Positions 646 through 14,123 of a DNA stretch of 14,123 bases are shown here, in pieces. Source of the DNA: Oscillospiraceae bacterium (GTDB taxonomy: Bacteria > Bacillota > Clostridia > Oscillospirales > Ruminococcaceae); assembly GCA_016303195.1 (NCBI GenBank), contig JAEDMD010000026.1, positions 1-14,123 of the forward strand, in the 5' to 3' direction. Both the position numbers and the translations under genes were made by a program. The first letter of the stretch is position 1. The number at the start of each line of letters is the position of its first letter. The notes beneath the pieces were generated by a model. That model had not been told where the DNA came from, searched no databases, and saw nothing but the letters and a program-made list of their open reading frames with translations.

Positions 646-1557
646 TTATTGGATACTAAGATAACCTTTCAGCTTAGCAAGATATGTTTCGGCAAGTTCA
701 CTGAGAATGACATTTTTTAGCGTGATATAGCCTATTTCCATTACTTCATCATTACCGCTTTCAAAAGGAACGGCAATATAGTCGCTTCCGTTAAGTTCCT
801 CGCAGATGATGCCCGAACATAGTGTATAACCGTTAAGACCGATCATCAGATTCAGCATAGTAGCCCTGTCATTGGCTTTGATAATGCGCTGGTAATCGTT
901 GGTACTGAGAATTTCCTCTGCAAGGTAGAATGAACTGTTGTCGCCCTGCTCAAAGGAAAGACACGGGAATTCATCAAGCTGTTCAAAGCTGATGCTTTTC
1001 TGAGAGGCGAGGGGATGGCCTTTCCAGATATAAACAAAAGGATTGCAGTTAGTCAGCGCATGGAATTTCAGACCGTTTGAACTCAGAAGTTTTGTCATTG
1101 ACTGCCTGTTGAAGTCATTGAGGTAAATAATACCGATCTCACTCCTGAGAGTTGCCACATCGCTGATTATTTCCAGAGTTTTTGTCTCACGGATAGCGAA
1201 TTCATATTCGGAAGTATCGAACTCCTTGACCATTTCCACAAAAGCCTTGACAGCGAAAGAATAATGCTGAGTTGACACACCGAATTTCTTTTTTATGCCG
1301 CCTTTGCTGATATATTTTTCAGCGAGAACATCGAATTGACTCACGACCTGACGGGCATACTGCAAAAACTCCGCACCATCATTTGTAAGCGTAACACCCT
1401 TTCCGCTGCGGTTGAATATCTTGATTCCTATTTCTTTTTCAAGCTCCTGAACGGAGGAAGTAAGGGACGGCTGAGAGACATATAACTGCTCAGCCGCCTT
1501 GTTCATTGAACCATAAGCAGAAATTGCAAGGATGTATTTCAATTGTTGCAAAGTCAT
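646..1557 (-). CDS. LysR-family transcriptional regulator, probable sulfur/cysteine regulator
   Basis: The 303-residue protein has the standard LysR length. Its N-terminal winged helix-turn-helix (about residues 1-60: MTLQQLKYILAI, then the AAEQLYVSQPSLTSSVQELE recognition region) is followed by a linker helix and a periplasmic-binding-protein-like effector domain from about residue 90. The gene begins 8 nt after the stop of the mccA-like gene and is the last gene of the sulfur-amino-acid operon, so it should be produced together with the enzymes it presumably controls. Homologues in this arrangement are comparable in role to Bacillus YtlI or enteric CysB. The effector (O-acetylserine, a homocysteine-related metabolite or another compound) cannot be read from the sequence. 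Three matching LysR-type boxes in the window are its likely targets. Confidence 0.88.
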   Translation of the reverse strand: MTLQQLKYILAISAYGSMNKAAEQLYVSQPSLTSSVQELEKEIGIKIFNRSGKGVTLTNDGAEFLQYARQVVSQFDVLAEKYISKGGIKKKFGVSTQHYSFAVKAFVEMVKEFDTSEYEFAIRETKTLEIISDVATLRSEIGIIYLNDFNRQSMTKLLSSNGLKFHALTNCNPFVYIWKGHPLASQKSISFEQLDEFPCLSFEQGDNSSFYLAEEILSTNDYQRIIKANDRATMLNLMIGLNGYTLCSGIICEELNGSDYIAVPFESGNDEVMEIGYITLKNVILSELAETYLAKLKGYLSIQ

Positions 1558-1565
1558 ATTTCACC

Positions 1566-2486
1566 TCAGCCAAACAGGCCCGTACTGAAATATCTGTCAC
1601 CACGGTCTGGAAAAACAGTAACAATATTTCCCTTAGCGCCGCTGTTTATAAGTTTCTGGACTGCCGCCATTGCCGCACCGGAAGAAGAACCTGCAATGAT
1701 ACCCTCAGCAGAAGCAAGAAGTCGGGCGGAGGCAAATGATTCTTCATCGTTGATCTTGATGACATCATCCACCAGAGACATATCCATAGTTTCGGCAATG
1801 AAATCGTTTCCGATGCCTTCAATGTTGTAGTCGCTGTGTTCACCGCCGCCCATAGTTGAGCCGACGGGATCGGCGAGGATGCCTTTGGTTTCGGGATGGC
1901 GTTCCTTGATATAGCGGAGTATTCCTGTGTAAGTGCCGCCGCTTCCTGCGCCTGCGACAACATAGTCGATGTTTCCGTCAAGCCCCTCAAAAATTTCTTT
2001 TCCTGTTGTTTCATAGTGGGCGAGGGGATTGCTCTGATTCTTGAACTGTTCAAGGGAAATCGAATCGGGTATCTGAGATTTGATCTCCTCAGCCTTAGCA
2101 ACTGCACCGAGCATACCAAGTTCACGGGGAGTATTCACAACTTCCGCACCGAGGGCACGGAGGAGTGACTGTTTTTCGGCAGAAAACTTAGTCGGAACTA
2201 CAAAAATGATGCGATATCCTCTGTTGAGAGCGGCAAAAGCAATACCAAGACCTGTATTTCCGGCAGTAGCTTCAACGATAGTGCCGCCTTTTTTCAGGAG
2301 ACCTTTCTGTTCGGCATCATTTATCATGTACAGACCTGTACGGTCTTTAACGCTTCCTGAAGGGTTGTAGAGTTCCAGCTTTGCAAAAACGTTCACTCCC
2401 TCAGCTTTTACAATATTTCCCAGTCTCACCAGCGGAGTATTGCCGATGAGAGCCTGCATAGAGTCATAGTAATTCATATTCAGCAC
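1566..2486 (-). CDS. mccA: PLP-dependent cystathionine beta-synthase / O-acetylserine sulfhydrylase family enzyme
   Basis: A fold-type II PLP enzyme of 306 residues that makes cystathionine or cysteine from an activated serine and a thiol or sulfide. Seen: the GNTPLVRL entry motif (15-22), the PLP lysine in NPSGSVKDR (K47), the AGNTG asparagine loop (75-79), the GSGGT phosphate-binding loop (181-185) and the SSSG motif (267-270) that contacts the pyridine nitrogen. The YNIEGIGNDFI stretch, the NDEESF segment and the FPDRGDRY tail resemble cystathionine beta-synthases and Bacillus MccA more than the biosynthetic CysK. There is no CBS regulatory pair at the C-terminus. The start lies one base after the mccB-like stop. 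With the gamma-lyase partner it would form a reverse transsulfuration route from homocysteine to cysteine. Plain cysteine synthase (cysK) is the alternative. Confidence 0.85.
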   Translation of the reverse strand: MLNMNYYDSMQALIGNTPLVRLGNIVKAEGVNVFAKLELYNPSGSVKDRTGLYMINDAEQKGLLKKGGTIVEATAGNTGLGIAFAALNRGYRIIFVVPTKFSAEKQSLLRALGAEVVNTPRELGMLGAVAKAEEIKSQIPDSISLEQFKNQSNPLAHYETTGKEIFEGLDGNIDYVVAGAGSGGTYTGILRYIKERHPETKGILADPVGSTMGGGEHSDYNIEGIGNDFIAETMDMSLVDDVIKINDEESFASARLLASAEGIIAGSSSGAAMAAVQKLINSGAKGNIVTVFPDRGDRYFSTGLFG

Positions 2487-2487
2487 C

Positions 2488-3648
2488 TCACTTTATTTCA
2501 GCGGCATTGATAGCCTGTTCAAGGTCAGCAAGAATGTCATTGATATTTTCGATTCCCACAGAAAGCCTGATAAGTCCATCGGTGATGCCGACTTTTTTGC
2601 GGATATCAGCAGGTATCGAAGCGTGTGTCATAGTTGCGGGATGGCAAACGAGAGACTCCACGCCACCGAGACTTTCAGCCAGTGAAATAAGTTCAAGGCT
2701 CTCGAAGAATTTGCGGATATCATAGTTTTCGTGAAGCTCGAATGAGATCATCGCACCGCCGTTTTTAGCCTGACGGCGGTTTGTTTCGTAGCCGCTGTCT
2801 GATTTGAGACCTGGATAATAAACGTTCTTGACAGCTTTGTGAGCGGTGAGGAATTCAGCGGCTTTTTCGGCATTTTCAACGTGTCTGTCCATTCTGACAG
2901 CAAGAGTCTTGATTCCACGGATAAGGAGGAAGGAATCGAACGGGCCGAGGACTCCGCCTGTGGAATTCTGGATGAATGCGATCTTTTCAGCAAGTTCTTT
3001 GCTGTTCACAACTGCAAGTCCCGAAACAACATCGCTGTGTCCGCCAAGATATTTTGTAGCGCTGTGAACAACGATATCAGCCCCCAGTTCAAGCGGCTTC
3101 TGGAGGTAAGGTGTCATGAAAGTATTGTCCACGATAACGAGAAGTCCGTGCTTGTGGGATACCTCAGCAATTGCCTTTATATCGGTAACTGACATAAGCG
3201 GATTTGCAGGGCTTTCTATAACGACAGCCTTGACATCGTCAGTTATCTGAGTTTCGTAAACATCGGGATGAGTTGTGTCAGCGATAGTGTAATTGATATT
3301 GAAGTGATCGAACACCTTATCGAGAACACGGAAAGTACCGCCGTAAACGTTGCTGGATATGAGAACTCTGTCACCGCTGTGAAGCAGGCTGAGAACTGCG
3401 GTGATAGCAGCCATACCCGAACCGAAAGCGAAACCTGCGACACCGCCTTCAAGCTCAGCGATAAGAGCTTCAAGGGCTTCACGGGTAGGGTTGCCTGTGC
3501 GTGAGTATTCATAGCCTCTCATTTTTCCAAGACCGTCCTGCTTGTAGGTGGATGTCTGGTATATCGGCACATTTACAGCGCCTGTTCTTTCGTCGATGGA
3601 GATACCTCCGTGGATAAGTTTTGTTTCAGTATATTTTGAATTGCTCAT
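2488..3648 (-). CDS. mccB: Cystathionine gamma-lyase / gamma-synthase family enzyme
   Basis: A 386-residue Cys/Met-metabolism PLP enzyme of fold type I, full length for the family. Seen: YEYSRTGNPTR (46-56), whose Y48 and R50 bind the phosphate of the neighbouring subunit's PLP, a GSGMAA loop (76-81), VDN (173-175) with the aspartate that contacts the pyridine nitrogen, and the PLP lysine in SATKYLGGHSDV (K199). The C-terminal SLGGVESLVCHPATMTH motif is conserved in lyases and synthases. The start is 12 nt after the methyltransferase stop and the stop is one base before the next gene, so translation is closely coupled. The pairing with a CBS-type enzyme favours gamma-lyase/homocysteine desulfhydrase, which releases cysteine, 2-oxobutyrate and ammonia. 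Gamma-synthase (metB) cannot be excluded from sequence alone. Confidence 0.85.
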   Translation of the reverse strand: MSNSKYTETKLIHGGISIDERTGAVNVPIYQTSTYKQDGLGKMRGYEYSRTGNPTREALEALIAELEGGVAGFAFGSGMAAITAVLSLLHSGDRVLISSNVYGGTFRVLDKVFDHFNINYTIADTTHPDVYETQITDDVKAVVIESPANPLMSVTDIKAIAEVSHKHGLLVIVDNTFMTPYLQKPLELGADIVVHSATKYLGGHSDVVSGLAVVNSKELAEKIAFIQNSTGGVLGPFDSFLLIRGIKTLAVRMDRHVENAEKAAEFLTAHKAVKNVYYPGLKSDSGYETNRRQAKNGGAMISFELHENYDIRKFFESLELISLAESLGGVESLVCHPATMTHASIPADIRKKVGITDGLIRLSVGIENINDILADLEQAINAAEIK

Positions 3649-3660
3649 AGTAATTGCTCC

Positions 3661-4560
3661 TTATTCATAGTTGTAGCCTGCGGTATAAGCCGCTGATATC
3701 AGGCTTACGTTTTCAAATGCTTTCATATTATCGTTTCTGCCGCTGAAATAATGTTCCTGAACCTTTTCAGGCGGCATATAGGTATCGATCTGGAAACCGA
3801 GTTTATACAGCGCACGTGAGACTTCACTGTAATCGTATCCGCCACGCATGACCTCGCCGAGCGAACTTGTGATCTGTTCAAGCTGATGAACTCTTTCTGG
3901 GAAATTTCCGCTTTTCATGGGATAATCAAAAACCAGTTCGCTTCCGAGAGCGGATATATCAGCGATCTGAGAGAGAGTATCCGAGAACACATCCAGCGTC
4001 AGGTAATAGGTGACACCGAGAATGCTGAAAAAAGTTTTGGTATTTTTATCAAAACCTGCTTCAAGAAGTTTTTCCACCATACTGTCTTTTTCAAAATCGA
4101 CAGGGACGAATCTGACATTTTCCGGGATATTCCATTCGAGACTGCTTATTTTTTCCAGCTTGTAGCGCTGAGTGTCAGGATGGTCTATCTCGAAAATTTT
4201 AATGTTGGGGTCGGTATTTCTGAAAGTGAAAGTATCCGAACCCACACCGCAGATAACGTACTGGATGTTACCGTTTTCTTTAGCGAAATCCCTGAGTCTG
4301 CTTTCGGAAAAATGAATTCTTGAAAGGGGGATGGAAGCGAAATATTCATTAATGAACTGCTCTGTTTCATCTGCCGACATTTTTTCGTCGATACCATCGA
4401 AGCCGTGGCTTATCATGTCATATATCAGGTCATATTCTTCCTTGCCCATGAGATCATAAGCGAGGTAATCGTCATATATTTTTTCACGTGACTTATTTGA
4501 ATGCCATGCACGAACGAACGCACATATCTTGGCGGTCACGCTTTCTCTTTCATCAACCAT
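3661..4560 (-). CDS. SAM-dependent methyltransferase, LCM/PPM2-like family
   Basis: A class I methyltransferase of 299 residues. Motif I is GVGSDTFTFR (105-114), motif II is FEIDHPDTQ (123-131) with the ribose-binding acid, and FVPVDFE (151-157) is the third SAM-pocket strand. This combination is typical of the leucine carboxyl methyltransferase-like group (COG3315), a group often labelled 'polyketide O-methyltransferase' without evidence. It is the first structural gene after the cysteine attenuator, with a strong AGGAGGT ribosome binding site 6 nt before the ATG. Its position ahead of the mccB- and mccA-like genes recalls Bacillus yrrT-mtnN-mccA-mccB, where YrrT is also a methyltransferase. 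It may convert SAM to SAH to feed homocysteine into transsulfuration, or methylate a toxic thiol. The substrate is unknown. Confidence 0.8.
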   Translation of the reverse strand: MVDERESVTAKICAFVRAWHSNKSREKIYDDYLAYDLMGKEEYDLIYDMISHGFDGIDEKMSADETEQFINEYFASIPLSRIHFSESRLRDFAKENGNIQYVICGVGSDTFTFRNTDPNIKIFEIDHPDTQRYKLEKISSLEWNIPENVRFVPVDFEKDSMVEKLLEAGFDKNTKTFFSILGVTYYLTLDVFSDTLSQIADISALGSELVFDYPMKSGNFPERVHQLEQITSSLGEVMRGGYDYSEVSRALYKLGFQIDTYMPPEKVQEHYFSGRNDNMKAFENVSLISAAYTAGYNYE

Positions 4561-4590: not shown

Positions 4591-4620
4591 AAAAAAACGC
4601 AGAACGCAACGCATTCTACG
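4591..4620 (-). terminator. Intrinsic terminator of the cysteine-operon leader (attenuator)
   Basis: On the minus strand CGTAGAATGC (4620-4611), a GTT loop and GCGTTCTGCG (4607-4598) form a 10-bp stem with two G-U pairs, followed immediately by seven T (4597-4591). It lies between the leader peptide and the methyltransferase gene, 30 nt upstream of its start codon. It cannot serve an upstream full-length gene, because the transcript carries only the leader peptide at this point. It therefore acts as a regulated stop signal for the operon. Confidence 0.88.
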
Positions 4621-4693
4621 CAATAAGGCATACAGCCGTTTACTCTGTCAGACAGCGGAAGTTCAACATCGCTGAGCGGAGTTATGCGTAAAA
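4612..4693 (-). promoter_or_regulatory. Antiterminator pairing competing with the leader terminator
   Basis: Segment 2 (minus strand 4693-4682, UUUACGCAU core, within leader codons for F-T-H-N) can pair with segment 3 (4626-4614, UUAUUGCGUAGAA) over 12 base pairs with one bulged U. Segment 3 includes most of the 5' arm of the terminator, so the two structures exclude each other. Segment 1, the cysteine-codon run (4724-4715), can pair with segment 2 over nine pairs with one mismatch. These are the three alternatives of a trp-type attenuator. Pairing was worked out by eye and no folding energy was calculated. A further 5-bp hairpin (4674-4653) surrounds the leader stop codon and could be a pause signal. 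Confidence 0.75.
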
Positions 4694-4746
4694 GCGGTGA
4701 TAATAATGTTACAGCACATACAACAACACATATTAATAACTCTCAT
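4663..4746 (-). CDS. Cysteine-rich attenuation leader peptide (27 residues)
   Basis: The short frame begins MRVINMCCCMCC, continues through an ordinary tail and ends QRC-stop: six cysteines in 27 residues, five of them at positions 7-9 and 11-12 and the sixth just before the stop. An AGGAGA ribosome binding site (4759-4754) sits 7 nt before the ATG, and the message would start near 4787 from a consensus promoter. It is followed by mutually exclusive antiterminator and terminator structures and then the cysteine operon. Ribosomes stalling at the cysteine codons when Cys-tRNA is uncharged would cover segment 1 and leave segment 2 free to form the antiterminator. Ribosomes that translate past would occupy segment 2 and allow termination. 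The peptide itself probably has no function. The mechanism is inferred; the peptide, ribosome binding site and hairpins are seen. Confidence 0.85.
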   Translation of the reverse strand: MRVINMCCCMCCNIIITAFTHNSAQRC

Positions 4747-4793
4747 GTTCAGCTCTCCTTTTTAAGCTTACTATTCCTATCGGAACTATATGC

Positions 4794-4822
4794 ATTATAT
4801 CACCAAAATCATACTTTGTCAA
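4794..4822 (-). promoter_or_regulatory. Consensus sigma-A promoter of the cysteine operon
   Basis: On the minus strand TTGACA (4822-4817), a 17-nt spacer and TATAAT (4799-4794) match the consensus perfectly. The start would be near 4787, about 41 nt before the leader peptide. A perfect promoter fits a gene set whose main control comes after initiation, at the attenuator. Confidence 0.85.
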
Positions 4823-4849
4823 TAGGTGAACCGTGAATTCGTCACAAGT

Positions 4850-5111: not shown

Positions 5112-5168
5112 CAACAATTAAGAGGATAAAAATACATTAGGTATTAGTAATGAAAGGTAATGATAATT

Positions 5169-6371
5169 ATGAATAAGAATTATAAATTTGTATCAGTGCT
5201 TGCAGCACTCTCACTTCTCACAGGCTGTGGAGCATTAAATAATTCATCCGAACAGACTGCACCGACATCATCAAGCGAGGTTGCAGTAACAGAAGCAGAG
5301 ACCACAAAGGATTGCTGTGAGGACAGCGAAAAGGACTGCTGTGAATCAAGTGTGGCAGATTGCTGCGGAGATGCGGCAGAAGCAGTTTCACAGACAATTA
5401 CACCCGAAAAGACAGATATCAATATAGACCATCTTAACTCCACCGCACATCTTCTTGCATTCGTTGCAAAGGAGGAGGGATTCTTCGAGGAGTAAGGCCT
5501 TAACGTAACACTCACACAGTTCTCCAGTGCGGCTGAGCTTGTGAACGGAATCGAATCCGACAAGCTGGATCTTGCATTCATCGGTTCAGTTCCGACACTT
5601 ACATTCCAGAGTCAGGGACACGATATTTCGATATTCGGCGGAGCAATGACAAACGGTCACGGCTACGTTATCAAGTCTGAATTCACAGACAAAGATGAAG
5701 CAGGCGTTGAGGTACTCAAAGGAAGAAATGTAGCATCTGTCAAGAACAGCGTACAGGACGCAGAACTCCAGATACTTCTTAAAAATGCACATATTCCGAT
5801 AGGTGAGGGCGAGGATGAAGTAAATATCGTATATTTCGACAGCCAGAAGGATGCATATGCGGCACTTCTTAATGATTCTATCGATGCAGCATCAGCATAT
5901 TCTCCATATACCTCACTTGCCGCATCACAGGGCTACAAGGTAGTTTACTACTGCGCTCATGAGGAGGCGCTCCAGAATCAGCCATGCTGCCGTCAGGTTG
6001 CAAAAACATCCGCACTTAGCCAGTATCCGAACACATATACAGCAATTGAAAGAGCATTCATCAAGGCTTATAAATTCACACAGACTGACCACGAAAAGAC
6101 GATTCAGGATGTTAAGCAGTACATTGACATCGAGGATGATCTTATCAATGTTGAGCTTTACGACGGATTTGCAACATCATCACCTGATCCCGACAAGCAG
6201 GGAACTATCGAACTTAAAAACACTATCGTCGAACTCGGATATACAGAGGATTATGATATTGAGCCGCTTTACAATACATCAATATATGAGAAGGCTCTGA
6301 ACAGCATTCTTGCAGAGGAAGACGACGATATCTATAAATCATTACAGGAGCATTTCAATGACTACGAATAA
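5169..6371 (+). pseudogene. ABC transporter substrate-binding lipoprotein (SsuA/TauA/NMT1-like) with an in-frame stop
   Basis: An exported binding protein of about 400 codons, with a signal peptide and lipobox LLTGC (16-20; C20 would carry the lipid). The ATG at 5169 is preferred because AAAGG lies 11 nt upstream; the ATG at 5160 would be only 2 nt from it. After a low-complexity linker with three DCC octapeptide repeats (48-71), the mature domain begins about residue 85 with HLLAFVAKEEGFFEE. At codon 109 a TAA (5493-5495) interrupts the frame, and the domain resumes without frameshift as GLNVTLTQFSSAAELVNG, then LAFIGSVPTL and an NQPCCRQ motif. Related proteins usually have Glu or Tyr here, so one base change explains it. 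No good ribosome binding site restarts the second part. The family binds sulfonates, nitrate, thiamine precursors or similar ligands; context suggests an organosulfur compound. It may be a natural knockout, a sequencing error or readthrough. Confidence 0.8.
5310..5381 (+). repeat. Three tandem 24-bp units encoding DCC octapeptides
   Basis: Within the binding-protein linker, DCCEDSEK, DCCESSVA and DCCGDAAE follow one another with an exact 8-residue period (5310, 5334, 5358). Each unit starts GAY-TGC-TGY. Outside the Asp-Cys-Cys core the units have drifted, so the cysteine pairs appear to be the retained part. Confidence 0.8.
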
Positions 6372-7176
6372 AATAGAGATAAAAAATCTCACAGTTAATT
6401 ATATTGAGAACAAGCGCAGCTTCAACGCATTGCACGATGTTTCTTTCGGTGTAGGGAACGGAGAGTTCGTAAGTGTTATCGGAGCGAGTGGATGCGGAAA
6501 ATCCACATTGCTGAGTGTTCTTGAGGGACTTCGTCAGCCCGTAGGCGGATCAGTCGAGATAGACGGAAGTCAGCTTCACGGAACAGGCACAGAGCGAGGA
6601 GTAGTTTTTCAGCACTACTCCCTGTTCCCGTGGATGACTACACGTAAGAATATCGAATTTGGCATAAAGCAGGCAAGACATGACATCAAGCGCAGTGAGC
6701 GCACAAGGATAGCTGAAGATTTTCTGAATAAGGTAGGCTTAAACGGATTCGGAAGCAAATATCCGTCACAGCTTTCAGGCGGAATGCAGCAGAGAGCGGC
6801 AATTGCACGTGCGCTTGCGATGGATACGGATATACTTCTTATGGATGAGCCGTTCAGCGCCATAGATGCCAAGAACAGAGTGATATTGCAGGAACTTCTG
6901 CTGAAACTCTGGGAGGGCGACGGAACTGAGCCACGCAAGACCGTAGTTTTCGTCACACATGACATTGACGAGGCTATACTTCTTTCCGACAAGATCGTAG
7001 TTCTCACCGCACATCCGGGAACAGTGAACGAGATCGTAAGAGTTCCTTTTGAGCGTCCGAGAAACCGTGAACAGCTTGTAAAGACGGATGAATACGGAAA
7101 ATTCCGCAATAAACTGCTGTCACTGCTTTATAATGATATTGCCGAGAGGATCGGCGGAGACGAGGTGGTATTATGA
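6358..7176 (+). CDS. ABC transporter ATPase, nitrate/sulfonate/taurine (SsuB/TauB) type
   Basis: The 272-residue ATPase powers import through the adjacent permease on the cytoplasmic face. Seen: Walker A GASGCGKST (42-50), Q-loop glutamine at 85 followed by the PWMTTRKN segment typical of SsuB/TauB/NrtD, signature LSGGMQQR (139-146), Walker B ILLMDEP (159-165), D-loop SAID, and the switch histidine in VTHD (H201). The ATG at 6358 is chosen because AGGAG (6346-6350) precedes it by 7 nt; it overlaps the end of the binding-protein gene by 14 nt. Upstream in-frame starts lack a ribosome binding site. All catalytic motifs are intact even though the binding-protein gene carries a stop codon, which argues against an old dead operon. 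Confidence 0.9.
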   Translation: MTTNKIEIKNLTVNYIENKRSFNALHDVSFGVGNGEFVSVIGASGCGKSTLLSVLEGLRQPVGGSVEIDGSQLHGTGTERGVVFQHYSLFPWMTTRKNIEFGIKQARHDIKRSERTRIAEDFLNKVGLNGFGSKYPSQLSGGMQQRAAIARALAMDTDILLMDEPFSAIDAKNRVILQELLLKLWEGDGTEPRKTVVFVTHDIDEAILLSDKIVVLTAHPGTVNEIVRVPFERPRNREQLVKTDEYGKFRNKLLSLLYNDIAERIGGDEVVL

Positions 7177-8093
7177 CATTGCAGAAACGCTATCTTCGCA
7201 TAACGCATCTGCTTTTCATTGCCCTGCTCCTGATACAGCTTTTGCCTACACGCTCCACAAAGGAAGTTTTCACAAACTCGCTGATAATATTTGCAGTCGG
7301 AGTTGAGGTCATAGTTCTTATAGCATCCACATTTATCAAGAATGAAAAATCATTGGCATTACTGCTTGATATAGCAGGATTCATCTACACAGTGCTGGGA
7401 ATATGGACACTTGCCACAGCAAAATTCAATGTGCTGAATGATATGCTGTTTCCTGCACCGGGCAAGGTGATATCGCAGTTTGTGGAGGACAGATCAACTA
7501 TCGTCACAAATATAATCAGTTCACTGGGAACAACGTTCAAGGGCTTCATCATTGCCGCAGTAATAGCAATACCGCTTGGTTTGTTCATAGGCTGGAGCGC
7601 AAGAGTCGGAAGTGCCGCAACATATATTTCCAAATTTTTCAGTTCGATCCCGCCGATAGTCTACATTCCATACGGTATCGCACTTCTTCCGACATTCAAA
7701 TCAGTGTCAGTGTTTGTAATATTCCTTGCAACATTCTGGCCTGTATTTGCAGGAACGATGAGCGGAGTACTGGGAGTAGACAAAAAGATAATAGATTCAG
7801 CAAAAGTTCTGAACGTAAGCAAGCCTGAGATGCTGTTTTCGGTAATACTTCCTGCATCATTACAGCAGATATTCCTCGGATGCAATCAAGGACTCAGCGT
7901 ATCGTTCATACTCCTCACATCGGCTGAAATGATAGGCGCACGTGACGGAATGGGCTATTATGTCAAGTATTACTCCGATTTCGGAGACTATACACGAACC
8001 ATAACAGGATTGCTTGTTATAGGATTCGTGGTCATCGCAGTAACATTTCTGTTCAATAAATTGCAGAATCATCTGCTGAGATGGAAGAAGTAA
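7173..8093 (+). CDS. ABC transporter permease, SsuC/TauC type
   Basis: An inner-membrane permease of 306 residues. Three hydrophobic segments (about 8-25, 35-55, 62-82) precede a BPD_transp_1 core from about residue 115 to 296. The coupling-helix region near 205-230 (IIDSAKVLNVSKPEMLFSVILP) matches the EAA loop that docks onto the ATPase. The first segments are an extension relative to the minimal SsuC, as seen in many clostridial homologues. The start overlaps the ATPase stop as ATGA, with GAGGTGG just upstream. A strong terminator follows at 8112, so this is the last gene of the transporter operon. The transported compound cannot be read from the permease. Confidence 0.88.
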   Translation: MTLQKRYLRITHLLFIALLLIQLLPTRSTKEVFTNSLIIFAVGVEVIVLIASTFIKNEKSLALLLDIAGFIYTVLGIWTLATAKFNVLNDMLFPAPGKVISQFVEDRSTIVTNIISSLGTTFKGFIIAAVIAIPLGLFIGWSARVGSAATYISKFFSSIPPIVYIPYGIALLPTFKSVSVFVIFLATFWPVFAGTMSGVLGVDKKIIDSAKVLNVSKPEMLFSVILPASLQQIFLGCNQGLSVSFILLTSAEMIGARDGMGYYVKYYSDFGDYTRTITGLLVIGFVVIAVTFLFNKLQNHLLRWKK

Positions 8094-9602: not shown

Positions 9603-11135
9603 ATGCGACTTGCTTTTTCAATAATATATATAATCCTCATATTTGCACTTCTAATATGTACTATTCTTACACGGCGATCTGAGCGGCCTGTCCGTAATTC
9701 TGTAGCTTTTCTGGAAGCATCGCTGATACCTCCTGTTATAGGAAATCTGCTGATAGTGGCATCTACTGAACGTATCCCCGCTCTTATCGGATGCTATTTC
9801 TACTATATAGGTATGGATCTGGTCATGTATGCTCTTGTTAATTTCACAGATACCTATTGCCGGCGACCGGGCAGTACACGGCATCACAGACCAACTTCAA
9901 TGTATCTGGCTCTTTTCGCAGATTCGATACAAATGATACTGAACCCGTTTTTCGGCCATGCTTTCGAGGTTCAGGCAGTGAAAATTGACGGCGCTCCATA
10001 TTACAAATTAGTTCCGTTCATGTGGCAGACTGTACACCGTCTTGTGGATTATTTTATCTTCTTCTGCGTCATACTCATCTTTATCCTTGCAACTGTCAAA
10101 GCGCCAAAAATCAATAAGGAACGCTATTCTGTCATTCTGGTTACCATGATCTCAGTCGGCCTGCTTCAGACATACAATATTTTAGCAAAACATAATATCG
10201 ACCGCTCTGTGCTTGGTTACGGCGTTTTCGGAGTTGTCTTATTCTATTTCTCAATACGTTACAGACCGCTCAGACTTCTTGACCGTGTACTGTCAAATAT
10301 CGTTTCGGGACTATCCGATGCTTTCTATGTTTTTGATCCGAACGGAAACTGCATCTGGGCTAACGATCAGGGATGTACTCTTGCCGATATCAAAGACAAT
10401 GACTACGATGCGGTAAAGGATAAACTTATAAACCTGTTTGGTTCACCTGAAAAAAACGGCTCGAACATCGCAAAACTGAAAGTCGGAGAAGGCGAAAACG
10501 AGCGTTTCTATGTTCTGGAGGAAAAACAGGTAACTGATGAAAAAGGCCGTATCGACGGCACATACCTGCGAATTCAGGATGTTACCGAGGGTGAACATCA
10601 AATAAAGGTGCTTGATGAACAGATAGGACAGATAAGTCAGCAGGCTTTCCGTGATGCGCTTACAGGTGTCGGAAGCAAAGCCGCTTATCTCAAAAAAGTC
10701 AACGAGATCAATCAGGAGATCAACAGCGAAAATGCTGAATTTGCCGTTCTTATGGTGGATATGAACAACCTCAAGCAGATCAATGACGATCACGGTCACA
10801 AGGCAGGCGATCTTTACATAAAAGGATGCTGTCGTATGATCTGCGAAATGTTCAAGAATTCACCTGTTTTCCGTATCGGAGGCGACGAATTCGTCGCTGT
10901 GCTTCAGGGAAAGGACTATGACAAGCGAAACAAAAAGGTTGCTGAACTTCGTGAAATGTTTGCGGATTCCTTTGCTGATACCAGCGTTGATCCGTGGCTG
11001 CGGTATTCCGCTGCGGTCGGTGTTTCTGATTACTCGGACAGCGACAGTACATTTGAAGTTGTATTCAAACGTGCGGATTCTGTAATGTATGATGACAAAA
11101 AGGCTTTCAAACAGGCATACGGCAGTTACCGATGA
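9603..11135 (+). CDS. Membrane-bound PAS-GGDEF diguanylate cyclase
   Basis: A 510-residue protein that should make c-di-GMP from two GTP. About seven hydrophobic segments fill residues 1-220, resembling the 7TM sensor region found in front of some histidine kinases. A PAS-like domain follows at about 230-330 (SDAFYVFDPNGNCIWAN), then a short coiled linker and the GGDEF domain (about 348-505). Catalytic features are present: metal aspartate in MVDMNNLKQIND (D386), HGHKAGD, and the signature RIGGDEF (GGDEF 426-430). The RxxD inhibitory site expected six to nine residues before GGDEF is absent (FKNS there), so product feedback at the usual I-site is unlikely. AAAGG lies 9 nt before the ATG. The downstream phosphodiesterase gene follows after 47 nt and probably shares the transcript. 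Confidence 0.9.
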   Translation: MRLAFSIIYIILIFALLICTILTRRSERPVRNSVAFLEASLIPPVIGNLLIVASTERIPALIGCYFYYIGMDLVMYALVNFTDTYCRRPGSTRHHRPTSMYLALFADSIQMILNPFFGHAFEVQAVKIDGAPYYKLVPFMWQTVHRLVDYFIFFCVILIFILATVKAPKINKERYSVILVTMISVGLLQTYNILAKHNIDRSVLGYGVFGVVLFYFSIRYRPLRLLDRVLSNIVSGLSDAFYVFDPNGNCIWANDQGCTLADIKDNDYDAVKDKLINLFGSPEKNGSNIAKLKVGEGENERFYVLEEKQVTDEKGRIDGTYLRIQDVTEGEHQIKVLDEQIGQISQQAFRDALTGVGSKAAYLKKVNEINQEINSENAEFAVLMVDMNNLKQINDDHGHKAGDLYIKGCCRMICEMFKNSPVFRIGGDEFVAVLQGKDYDKRNKKVAELREMFADSFADTSVDPWLRYSAAVGVSDYSDSDSTFEVVFKRADSVMYDDKKAFKQAYGSYR

Positions 11136-11182
11136 TCGTTGAGGTGACATTATTATTTTTGAAACAGAAAGGATGTGGACAT

Positions 11183-12370
11183 ATGAATTATACGTCAGAG
11201 GAGATCAGAAAAGCACTGGAGGATAATGAATTCTGTGTATATTATCAGCCGATGTTCGTCACAATGACAGGACAGCTTAAAAGTGCGGAGGCTCTCATTC
11301 GCTGGATAAGACCTGACGGAACATTCATTTCGCCTGCACAGTTTATCCCCACAGCAGAGCGATCTGACCTGATAATGGATATCGACTGGTATGTTACAGA
11401 ATCTGTTTGCAAAACCCTTGAAAAGCAGAATACCATGCCTCAGTTTCCTATATCTGTCAATTTCTCACGCAGACATATCAGAGAGAAAAACTTCACAGAG
11501 AACCTTGTCTCCATTGTTGATAAATATGAACTGCCGCATCCGCTTCTTGAAGTTGAAATAACCGAATCTGCAATGGTCGGCGAAGAAGATAAGCTCTACG
11601 ACTGGATCGTGTCCATCAGAAATGCAGGTTTTTCCGTCGCTATCGACGATTTCGGCAGTGGTCTTTCATCATTGCAGTTCGTCAAGGACATCCCTGCCGA
11701 TGTGCTTAAAATAGACAAATCCCTCCTTAGCCACAACTGCGAGGACGAAAAGGAACGCATAGTTCTGGAAAGTATTTTCAATTTCGCTCACAGACTGAAT
11801 ATGAAGACCGTTGCCGAGGGTGTGGAGACTAAGGAACAGCTTGCATTTCTGCGCTCATGCGACTGCTATAAGATACAGGGATATCTCTTTGCACGTCCTA
11901 TGCCTGAATCTGATTACCTCCTGCTCTGCCAGTCTAATAATGTAAGCGAACAATCTGAGGATGTTTTACAGATACAAAGCAACACAAGTGCTACAAATCT
12001 CCTGCTTCAGGCTGTTCTTGCAAGGCATCCGCTGATATTCTTCGTTAACCTTACAAGAAATACATATTATGCTATGGCATACAAGAATTTCACTTCAACA
12101 GGCTGTCCGTCAACAGGTATTTTTGATGAACTGATCGGACACGGAACACTAAGTATGCACCCCGATGACCGTGAAATATTTGCTTCGACCTTCAACAGGG
12201 AGAATCTGATAGAAAAGTACAAGCAGGGTGAAAAATTCGTTCGTCTCATCACCCGTCAGCTTGGCGATGACGGTATTTACAGAAAAGTCGAGACCGTTGA
12301 CTGCTTCGTAAAAAGCAGTTACTCCGACGATATCATAGCAATAACCCTTTGCGAAAATCTGCCTGAATAA
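11183..12370 (+). CDS. EAL-domain c-di-GMP phosphodiesterase with a C-terminal sensor-like domain
   Basis: A 395-residue soluble protein predicted to linearise c-di-GMP. The EAL domain occupies about residues 1-250 and has all the usual catalytic residues: EAL (36-38), N93, E125/E128 in EVEITES, DDFGSG (155-160), K176, EGVE (212-215) and Q232. The remaining 125 residues resemble a PAS-like fold (LIFFVNLTRNTYYAM, later HPDDREIF) but are not clearly assigned. The ATG at 11183 is chosen because GAAAGGATGTGG precedes it; an upstream in-frame ATG at 11132 overlaps the cyclase stop and would add a hydrophobic, unrelated 17 residues. Paired with the cyclase it forms a local synthesis/degradation module, and its targets are not evident here. 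Confidence 0.88.
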   Translation: MNYTSEEIRKALEDNEFCVYYQPMFVTMTGQLKSAEALIRWIRPDGTFISPAQFIPTAERSDLIMDIDWYVTESVCKTLEKQNTMPQFPISVNFSRRHIREKNFTENLVSIVDKYELPHPLLEVEITESAMVGEEDKLYDWIVSIRNAGFSVAIDDFGSGLSSLQFVKDIPADVLKIDKSLLSHNCEDEKERIVLESIFNFAHRLNMKTVAEGVETKEQLAFLRSCDCYKIQGYLFARPMPESDYLLLCQSNNVSEQSEDVLQIQSNTSATNLLLQAVLARHPLIFFVNLTRNTYYAMAYKNFTSTGCPSTGIFDELIGHGTLSMHPDDREIFASTFNRENLIEKYKQGEKFVRLITRQLGDDGIYRKVETVDCFVKSSYSDDIIAITLCENLPE

Positions 12371-13195: not shown

Positions 13196-14123
13196 TATAC
13201 ATGATATGCAACACTTTAAATCAGCGTAATAGCGATAGAAAAAGGGACAGGATGCCATTTATCTCTTATCTCGGTTTCACGATAGTAGGTCATATCCTTG
13301 ACTACCGCTTTCAGCAGGCAGTTTTTTTCTTCTGCGGATGCTGCCTTTTTTTCCATTACTGCTACGGCTTCCTGCAATGCAACGAGCTTCTGCTTATAGT
13401 CAGTGACCGAAACTTCATTTTTAGCAGCATCTTCCAAAGCTGACATAAGTTCGGTTCTCCTTTTTGACAGTATCTCATTTCGCTTTACAAATACTTCGCT
13501 TGTATATATACCTTGTTCGAGAAATTCATAAAGCCGTTCTTGCTGAGTTTCAAGTGCATTAAGTTCTTTCTTGAGTACAGATGTAATGCTTTTCTGTATG
13601 TTAGGTGGACTTTTTTCACCGTTTTTCAGCATTTCTTTCATATCAGCCATAAGCTCCTTCAGGGCTTTAACGACCTCCGCTTCAACCTCAGCATATGTTG
13701 CAGATCTGTTCCCACATCTTGTCTGGTACGCACAGTGTAGTCTCGGCTCACAGTTTTTGTGCGGCTGGTATATCATAGGCCTGCCGCAGGAACAATGCAT
13801 TATACCTGCGAAAGGATTGGTTAGTTTCTTGCTCGCCTTTACCTTTGGCATACTGCCGAAACGTTCAAGGGAAGCATTAAAGGTGTCCTCAGAGATAATG
13901 GCTTCATGCTTGCCGTCAACGAGTATCAGATCCTCACGCTTTGCCTTCGGACGTGAAGCGGTTATTATTCCGTCCTCATATTTTTTTACTGTTTTTCTCC
14001 AGTTCCAGCGTATCTTTCCGATATAAACAGGATTTTTCAGCATATCTCTTATGCTTGCACTGCTCCACAGCTTGGACTTTCTCGGCATGATATGCATATC
14101 ATTCAGGCGATTGGCGATGGAAG
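13181..14123. mobile_element. Left end of an integrated element inside cotJC
   Basis: The region from the cotJC break to the edge of the window holds a large serine recombinase pointing back toward cotJC and nothing else recognisable. Serine recombinases integrate phages, conjugative elements and sporulation 'skin' elements at short core sequences, and their gene normally lies next to one attachment site. The attachment half-site would lie around 13180-13215. Element type and size cannot be judged because the rest is outside the window. Confidence 0.7.
13216..14123 (-). CDS. Large serine recombinase, C-terminal part (runs off the window)
   Basis: The frame stays open to the right edge: eight codons before the first internal ATG (14097) read SIANRLND, the expected lead-in to the Recombinase domain, so the true start and the catalytic N-terminal resolvase domain lie outside. 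Seen from the edge: the Recombinase domain (WSSASIRDMLKNPVYIGKIRW, then KHEAIISEDTF), a zinc ribbon with CSCG and CAYQTRCGNR, and a long charged coiled coil of about 100 residues that controls subunit interaction and direction of recombination. The protein would perform site-specific integration and excision by a serine-DNA intermediate. It is convergent with cotJC and 20 nt from its broken end. The visible part is intact, without stops or frameshifts. Confidence 0.9.
   Translation of the reverse strand, partial: SIANRLNDMHIMPRKSKLWSSASIRDMLKNPVYIGKIRWNWRKTVKKYEDGIITASRPKAKREDLILVDGKHEAIISEDTFNASLERFGSMPKVKASKKLTNPFAGIMHCSCGRPMIYQPHKNCEPRLHCAYQTRCGNRSATYAEVEAEVVKALKELMADMKEMLKNGEKSPPNIQKSITSVLKKELNALETQQERLYEFLEQGIYTSEVFVKRNEILSKRRTELMSALEDAAKNEVSVTDYKQKLVALQEAVAVMEKKAASAEEKNCLLKAVVKDMTYYRETEIRDKWHPVPFSIAITLI

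Follow-up and report, generated by a model that had tools for sequence, protein, structure and literature searches.

Introduction

The trp attenuator combines a short leader open reading frame (ORF), a run of codons for the end product, and an antiterminator that is set against a terminator. In Listeria, one paper (PMC5864092) is said to deal with ribosome-mediated attenuation. Statements on the following systems, here and below, refer to excerpts of the cited papers. In bacilli, a His leader peptide precedes hisS/hisZ where other species use a T-box, and the paper presents it as the first regular leader peptide from beyond the Proteobacteria and Actinobacteria (PMC2965389). Leaders with Cys codons include uORFC-8-2 of Rhodobacterales cysS, a motif of tandem Cys codons and a terminal U run that is predicted to act by ribosome-mediated attenuation (PMC8632094), the actinobacterial cys leaders, which have Cys runs and, in the excerpted text, no conserved terminator hairpin (PMC1262725), and the mycobacterial polycysteine uORFs before cysteine genes, whose control is called translational with reference to a 2020 paper (PMC13236596). 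The Clostridium ubiG-mccBA(-luxS) operon for methionine-to-cysteine conversion is controlled by a T-box-Cys through premature termination (PMC2940859).

Here we analyze a leader found in the window, by which we mean the whole 14,123-nt stretch of contig JAEDMD010000026.1 (assembly GCA_016303195.1) from an Oscillospiraceae bacterium. A previous sequence-only reading of the window had held that cysteine genes of Firmicutes are usually described under T-box or CymR control, and that cysteine-rich leaders are known mainly from actinobacteria. On the former statement, the bacillar His leader provides a precedent for a regular leader peptide in Firmicutes (PMC2965389); the latter statement needs correction in view of the motif predicted for Rhodobacterales cysS (PMC8632094). 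The further claim that no clostridial Cys peptide attenuator has been described agrees with our search of the open-access full-text literature, most subscription journals being outside its scope, in which no Cys-codon transcription attenuator was found described in Clostridia.

Results

Leader and operon in the window

The leader and the genes behind it are encoded on the minus strand and comprise the following features, each given with the basis of its assignment:

4817..4826, minus strand: −35 region CCTATTGACA, with TTGACA at 4822-4817 (promoter match)
4794..4799, minus strand: −10 element TATAAT (promoter match)
4774..4785, minus strand: palindrome TTCCGATAGGAA at the expected transcript start (leader comparison)
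4754..4760, minus strand: Shine-Dalgarno sequence AAGGAGA of the leader ORF (reading of the sequence)
4663..4746, minus strand: leader ORF of 27 codons, MRVINMCCCMCCNIIITAFTHNSAQRC followed by a stop (reading and homologous ORFs in relatives)
4711..4728, minus strand: Cys-codon run CCCMCC, codons 7-12, the predicted sensor (reading and relatives)
4682..4693, minus strand: segment 2, TTTTACGCATAA, the 5′ arm of the antiterminator, within the reading frame (pairing and alignment)
4664..4677, minus strand: near-invariant GCTCAGCGATGTTG, which includes the rare Arg codon CGA at 4671-4669 (alignment and codon count)
4614..4626, minus strand: segment 3, the 3′ arm of the antiterminator, overlapping the 5′ arm of the terminator (pairing and alignment)
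4591..4621, minus strand: intrinsic terminator, with an 11-bp stem at 4621-4597, a 3-nt loop and a U tract to 4591 (covariation)
3661..4560, minus strand: SAM-dependent methyltransferase (TIGR00027, PF04072), the first structural gene (family search)
2488..3648, minus strand: mccB-like PLP enzyme of Cys/Met metabolism (family search)
1566..2486, minus strand: member of the cysteine/cystathionine beta-synthase family, mccA/cysK-like (best model cysK, slightly below its cut-off)
646..1557, minus strand: LysR-family regulator, next in line after the mccA/cysK-like gene (family search)

As the sequence-only reading had claimed, the promoter, the ribosome site, the 27-residue CCCMCC ORF, the antiterminator, the mutually exclusive terminator and the operon are all present at these coordinates. 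The promoter agrees with the consensus at 12 of 12 positions, TTGACA and TATAAT being separated by a 17-nt spacer, and the stop codon of the leader ORF begins 16 nt beyond segment 2. Folded as a single sequence, the whole window leader is not unusually stable (z −0.56), so the evidence for it is comparative rather than energetic.

The methyltransferase, mccB and mccA genes form a probable operon for the conversion of methionine to cysteine. For the mccB-like product, the best NCBIfam model is cystathionine gamma-lyase/homocysteine desulfhydrase, at 570 bits against a cut-off of 594. In one relative (L079), a gene resembling luxS by eye lies between the methyltransferase gene and mccB. Transporter genes at 5160-8093 are divergent from the operon in the window, and include a substrate-binding lipoprotein of a sulfonate/taurine-type transporter (5160-6371, plus strand) with a linker rich in Cys pairs (DCCE..KDCCE..ADCC); in the window the reading frame of the lipoprotein is broken by an in-frame stop at 5493-5495. 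This linker is present in many relatives and missing in others (e.g. L002, L007, L024, L035 and L040). In 45 of the 58 closest loci (L001-L058) the transporter ATPase and permease genes lie upstream of the operon on its own strand, and in none on the opposite strand; the orientation in the window would reflect a local inversion or rearrangement, or a misassembly. By eye, the ORF list also shows adjoining GGDEF-like and EAL-like proteins (9603-12370, plus strand) and a serine-recombinase-like ORF at the end of the window (13216-14121, minus strand).

Conservation of the Cys-codon leader

Relatives were collected by a methyltransferase-alignment scan of species genomes, and the best 80 of 249 loci, mainly from Ruminococcus flavefaciens and its kin, were searched for a leader, defined as an ORF of 10-60 codons with at least three Cys within six residues and located no more than 420 nt ahead of the operon; in L059 and L061, where mccB comes first, the sequence ahead of mccB was taken. 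A Cys-rich leader ORF was found by script in 69 of these best 80 loci, with 54 attaining four Cys, whereas the opposite strand and shuffled sequence each gave 3 of 80, none of which attained four. The count by reading is likewise 69 of 80, with L072 (a chance-like ORF) and L080 (ambiguous) removed and L052 and L054 added. Eight of the 80 loci have no Cys-rich leader by reading (L062-64, L067, L068, L070, L072 and L077), and in two (L043 and L060) the leader region is cut off by the contig end.

A covariance model built from 37 leaders was run on 125 genomes of the genus and matches a leader in 49 of them. The methyltransferase gene is present in 53 of these 125 genomes, and 49 of the 53 have the leader; in each of the 49 it lies on the strand of that gene and stops 13-25 nt short of it. 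The genes that go without a leader match are that of G327, which has the contig coordinates of L043 and only 147 nt upstream, and the divergent copies of G331, G390 and G403, at 54%, 37% and 34% identity, respectively. The leader is single-copy in 48 of the 49 genomes, with a second weak match in G405. Among 297 genomes sampled more widely from the family, 4 match the model under stricter filters that lose weak matches. Low-scoring matches at L086-L089 and L092 appeared chance-like on reading and were rejected.

The CCCMCC run, the conservation of which had been set beforehand as a refuting test of the sequence-only reading, is conserved in the relatives, with the run broken in a few leaders (e.g. 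L022, L054 and L056). The competing pairings, which were to be checked in the same way, are kept in most relatives of the window type and less so in one subgroup. The scripts run on 55 leaders omit L052, for which no ORF was picked, and L048, in which the script found no terminator; in both the Cys run is visible by eye, and both match the covariance model. By reading, the Cys-run frame of L052 has no stop before the terminator, unlike the other leaders examined.

Terminator and antiterminator

A script search located the terminator in 56 of 57 leaders of the Ruminococcus type. In alignment A2, which holds 37 of the 57, leaving aside L004, L006, L049 and diverged ones, and which ends at the U tract, 92.1% of the terminator cells are paired, compared with at most 62.1% in slid versions. 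Both sides have changed in 8 of 13 pairs (30 cells), a level reached in 0 of 500 shuffles. The terminator covariation proposed as a check across relatives is strong.

Segment 2 mimics the 3′ arm of the terminator, and in most Ruminococcus leaders it is near CGTATTCTGCGTA, encoding RILR or similar. In the 37 aligned leaders, 88.3% of antiterminator cells are paired, against 22-75% in slid versions. The position of the antiterminator is kept, while its covariation, the other part of the proposed check, is present but modest: five pairs have changed on both sides, with only five such cells, 6 of 500 shuffles match this, and the pair 77-155 fails in 21 of the 37 rows. In 34 of 55 leaders, the duplex of segments 2 and 3 (2:3) is stronger than mononucleotide shuffles (p≤0.05). 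When the 13 codons after the run were recoded synonymously, the natural duplexes were the stronger overall (−15.7 versus −12.2 kcal/mol, Wilcoxon 5e-7), and leader by leader p≤0.05 was reached in 19 of 55, with p 0.09 for the window; the 55 leaders are related and hence not independent, and single leaders are often not significant against recodings. Because the duplex is stronger overall than the synonymous recodings, the pairing seems to have been selected beyond the needs of the peptide. The antiterminator is weak in the diverged subgroup with MCCMMCC (within L041-L053), where 2:3 lies above shuffles in 2 of 9 tested (L046 and L053). Additionally, RNAalifold found a 1:2 protector hairpin, in which the Cys run pairs with the conserved TATGCTCAGCG, with no compensatory changes.

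Folding with a ribosome mask and proposed mechanism

The nascent RNA was folded with a 31-nt mask in place of the ribosome. Over the 55 leaders, the occupancy of segment 3, which here counts any pairing with the stretch after the run and not with segment 2 alone, averages about 0.72 when the A site lies within the run. It drops to 0.22-0.28 at codons +6 to +14, and comes to 0.55 at the stop and 0.57 without a ribosome. In 51 of 55 leaders the value on the run exceeds the average over codons +4 to +12, and one leader is clearly opposite. In the window, where segment 2 alone was counted, 2:3 stands at 0.76 for A-site codons 6-13, 0.17 at codon 14 and at most 0.01 at codons 15-26, and returns to 0.52 at the last Cys and 0.72 at the stop, with 0.76 in the absence of a ribosome. 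The block of segment 2 by an overlying mask is a trivial outcome of this procedure, while the spacing of the pairing segment is not: in 51 of 55 leaders at least 10 nt separate its start from the final Cys codon of the run, which places it just outside a ribosome stalled there.

For the complete window leader at equilibrium, the terminator (3:4) dominates in every state tested (≥0.56), and reaches 0.56-0.87 with the ribosome on the run. Since 3:4 wins at equilibrium even there, only a kinetic switch would work. Without a ribosome, too, segment 2 is free in the window leader (0.76), so the model predicts antitermination in the absence of translation, unlike trp.

In the mechanism that we propose, cysteine starvation would stall the ribosome on the Cys run (codons 7-12), a position that is predicted by folding to leave segment 2 accessible. 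The free segment 2 would capture segment 3 as it emerges, before segment 4 is made, and the terminator would be pre-empted. An advancing ribosome is predicted to cover segment 2 while it moves between about codon 15 and codon 26 (CGA), and if segments 3 and 4 are transcribed in this interval the terminator would form. The 'off' state would thus arise mainly from the translating ribosome over segment 2, and the protector hairpin between the Cys run and TATGCTCAGCG may assist it. The sequence-only reading had cautioned that segment 2 lies in frame, with the stop 16 nt further on, and that the timing would differ from trp; this caveat is real, as the translating ribosome covers segment 2 in the mask folding. 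The conserved Cys run, the covarying terminator and the mask folding together favor the peptide-based cysteine attenuator suggested by that reading, and we regard it as very probable that the leader is a ribosome-mediated transcription attenuator in which 27 codons with a Cys run sense charged tRNA-Cys and decide on the terminator before the predicted methionine-to-cysteine operon.

Codon choices in the leaders

Among Cys codons of the leaders, 252 of 341 are TGT, while in 316 long ORFs of the same loci TGT accounts for 20% of 1,170 Cys codons and TGC for 80%; the Arg codon that precedes the later conserved Cys was scored by script as CGA in 53 of 55 leaders, compared with 5% of Arg codons in the long ORFs, and since the leader sequences are related neither the TGT nor the CGA counts are independent. 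In the other two, L002 and L007, the script took an Arg-Cys inside the Cys run, and reading shows CGA at the later Arg of both as well; the Arg-Cys of L010 is displaced downstream of the usual position. An RNA-level constraint could be the source of both the TGT bias and the CGA conservation. In the mask folding of the window, segment 2 stays covered as far as the CGA codon and no further, and this position suggests that CGA may act as a ribosome brake. A conserved partner for the near-invariant CGATGTTG was sought by eye only and none was seen; a role of this stretch as an RNA polymerase pause element was considered.

Leaders of other architecture in Clostridia

In other Clostridia, leaders before the same gene share little sequence beyond the Cys run, and some keep the run, a mimic of the terminator and the terminator. 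A terminator-like hairpin lies downstream in 22 of 22 tested leaders of other architectures, and 2:3 lies above shuffles in 9 of the 22 (8 of 18 and 1 of 4 in two sets). L066, L071 and L074 have CCCCML and, within 20 nt downstream, AACTCGGGCA, which mimics the terminator 3′ arm, with p 0.017 in one case and 0 of 300 shuffles in the two others. L124 has CCCCLCCC, then ACAGGTGG, then the stop (p 0.007), and the arrangement in L123 resembles it (p 0.003). The antiterminator of L133 gave p 0.01, and those of L131, L130 and L132 gave 0.077, 0.34 and 0.56; the latter three are no better than shuffles, nor are those of L059, L065, L069, L073, L075, L076, L079, L080, L127 and L128. The result for L078, one of the nine that lie above shuffles, spans a stretch that includes another hairpin. 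In L065, L073, L075, L076 and L078 the leader is of another type, with CPCCC or CCCC, and the methyltransferase gene behind it has no mccB/mccA neighbors; several of these leaders show two tandem hairpins with U-rich stretches by eye.

Fifteen more distant relatives (L123-L128 and L130-L138) were also inspected. Eight have a Cys-run leader (L123, L124, L127, L128 and L130-L133) and seven have none (L125, L126 and L134-L138), L137 having a chance-looking two-Cys ORF. In L125, which has no visible Cys leader, an Rrf2-family gene lies directly beside the methyltransferase gene. A repeated origin of the Cys leaders is plausible from these comparisons, the alternative being very fast divergence. 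A broader proposal is that Clostridia repeatedly built Cys-codon attenuators on this gene set in replacement of the T-box, that in the Ruminococcus type CGA before UGU brakes the ribosome at the last position that covers the antiterminator, as the stop codon does in trp, and that the bias of the leaders toward UGU, which their own genes avoid, sharpens the sensor; taken as a whole we advance this only tentatively, and it is rather more likely to be wrong than right.

Alternative explanations

A T-box or other riboswitch was considered as the controller and ruled out, as no T-box or other Rfam match lies over a leader in the window or in 33 loci (the window and 13 loci at the gathering score, and 20 more). 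The 22 Rfam matches in the 20 further loci are five tRNAs, an rRNA, 15 CRISPR repeats and a TwoAYGGAY RNA, the last on the strand opposite the methyltransferase gene in L128.

Alternatively, an Rrf2/CymR-like repressor and the LysR protein could exert most of the control by acting at the promoter, with the leader minor or constitutive, and several features of the promoter region point in this direction. The start-site palindrome TTCCGATAGGAA is found in 38 of 55 leaders and CGATAGG in 48, TATAAT in 50 and CCTATTGAC at −35 in 44, with a gap from TATAAT to CGATAGG of mostly 11 nt. Rrf2 genes are present in five of five genomes searched, an Rrf2 (CymR-like) gene adjoins a cysK-like gene by eye in L139 and L142, and CCTATTGAC recurs near the Rrf2 gene in L143. 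The palindrome is thus a possible operator of an Rrf2/CymR-like repressor, and these sequence patterns suggest that a repressor probably acts in addition to the attenuator. As the main control, however, the promoter leaves the Cys run, the TGT bias and the terminator mimics that other lineages make from new sequence unexplained, and the two layers are compatible; we consider control mainly at the promoter unlikely. A chemical role of the peptide, in which the Cys-rich nascent or released chain would sense metal, redox state or sulfide, whether by arresting its ribosome or as a small protein, and act through the terminator, would suit the four to eight Cys per peptide (mean 6.2 over 55 leaders) and the C-terminal AQRCC that is conserved in most Ruminococcus leaders. 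The peptides of other Clostridia, however, share little but the Cys run, yet all 22 tested have the downstream terminator-like hairpin, and the C-terminal motif is conserved at the nucleotide level, including the otherwise rare CGA, which points to an RNA or codon function. Peptide chemistry is accordingly an improbable explanation, still less likely than control at the promoter. Least likely of all, and in our judgment very improbable, is a translational mechanism, in which the leader would hide the ribosome binding site of the methyltransferase gene as in the mycobacterial Cys uORFs; excerpted text does place cysteine genes of M. smegmatis under translation attenuation (PMC13236596), but a covarying intrinsic terminator lies ahead of the gene in 56 of 57 leaders.

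Discussion

Peptide attenuators are a known kind of regulator, and we judge the window leader to be a new and well-supported example. If the transcription attenuator proposed here is correct, gut and rumen Firmicutes can gauge cysteine by translating a short peptide where related Clostridium use a T-box, and a single gene set would allow the swap of one sensor of tRNA charge for another to be traced. The near-invariant CGA codon and the UGU bias would provide handles on the 'off' position of an attenuator and on its sensitivity.

The window leader resembles the trp/his-type attenuators of Proteobacteria in its leader ORF with end-product codons, its mutually exclusive hairpins and the biosynthetic operon behind them. 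It differs from trp in that segment 2 lies within the ORF, with the stop 16 nt further on, and in that the 'off' state is predicted to come from a moving ribosome over segment 2, the protector hairpin being weak. Like the bacillar His leader as excerpted (PMC2965389), it would be a regular leader peptide in Firmicutes where others use a T-box, but the amino acid is cysteine rather than histidine, and the genes and the class are others. Tandem Cys codons and a terminal U run are shared with uORFC-8-2, which, in the excerpted description (PMC8632094), is set apart by gene and phylum: it precedes a tRNA synthetase gene in alphaproteobacteria and has two Cys codons. A Cys run ahead of cysteine genes is common to the window leader and to the mycobacterial and actinobacterial cys leaders (PMC13236596, PMC1262725, both in excerpt); the window leader carries a strong intrinsic terminator, which a leader of the mycobacterial type would not need. 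The T-box operon of Clostridium, as far as its excerpted description goes (PMC2940859), appears to share the gene set of methyltransferase, mccB and mccA, the methyltransferases being likened by their place in the operon, along with premature termination and tRNA-Cys charging as the signal. The T-box reads the charging of the tRNA directly, whereas in the window leader, where no T-box was detected, it would be read through translation of the Cys run.
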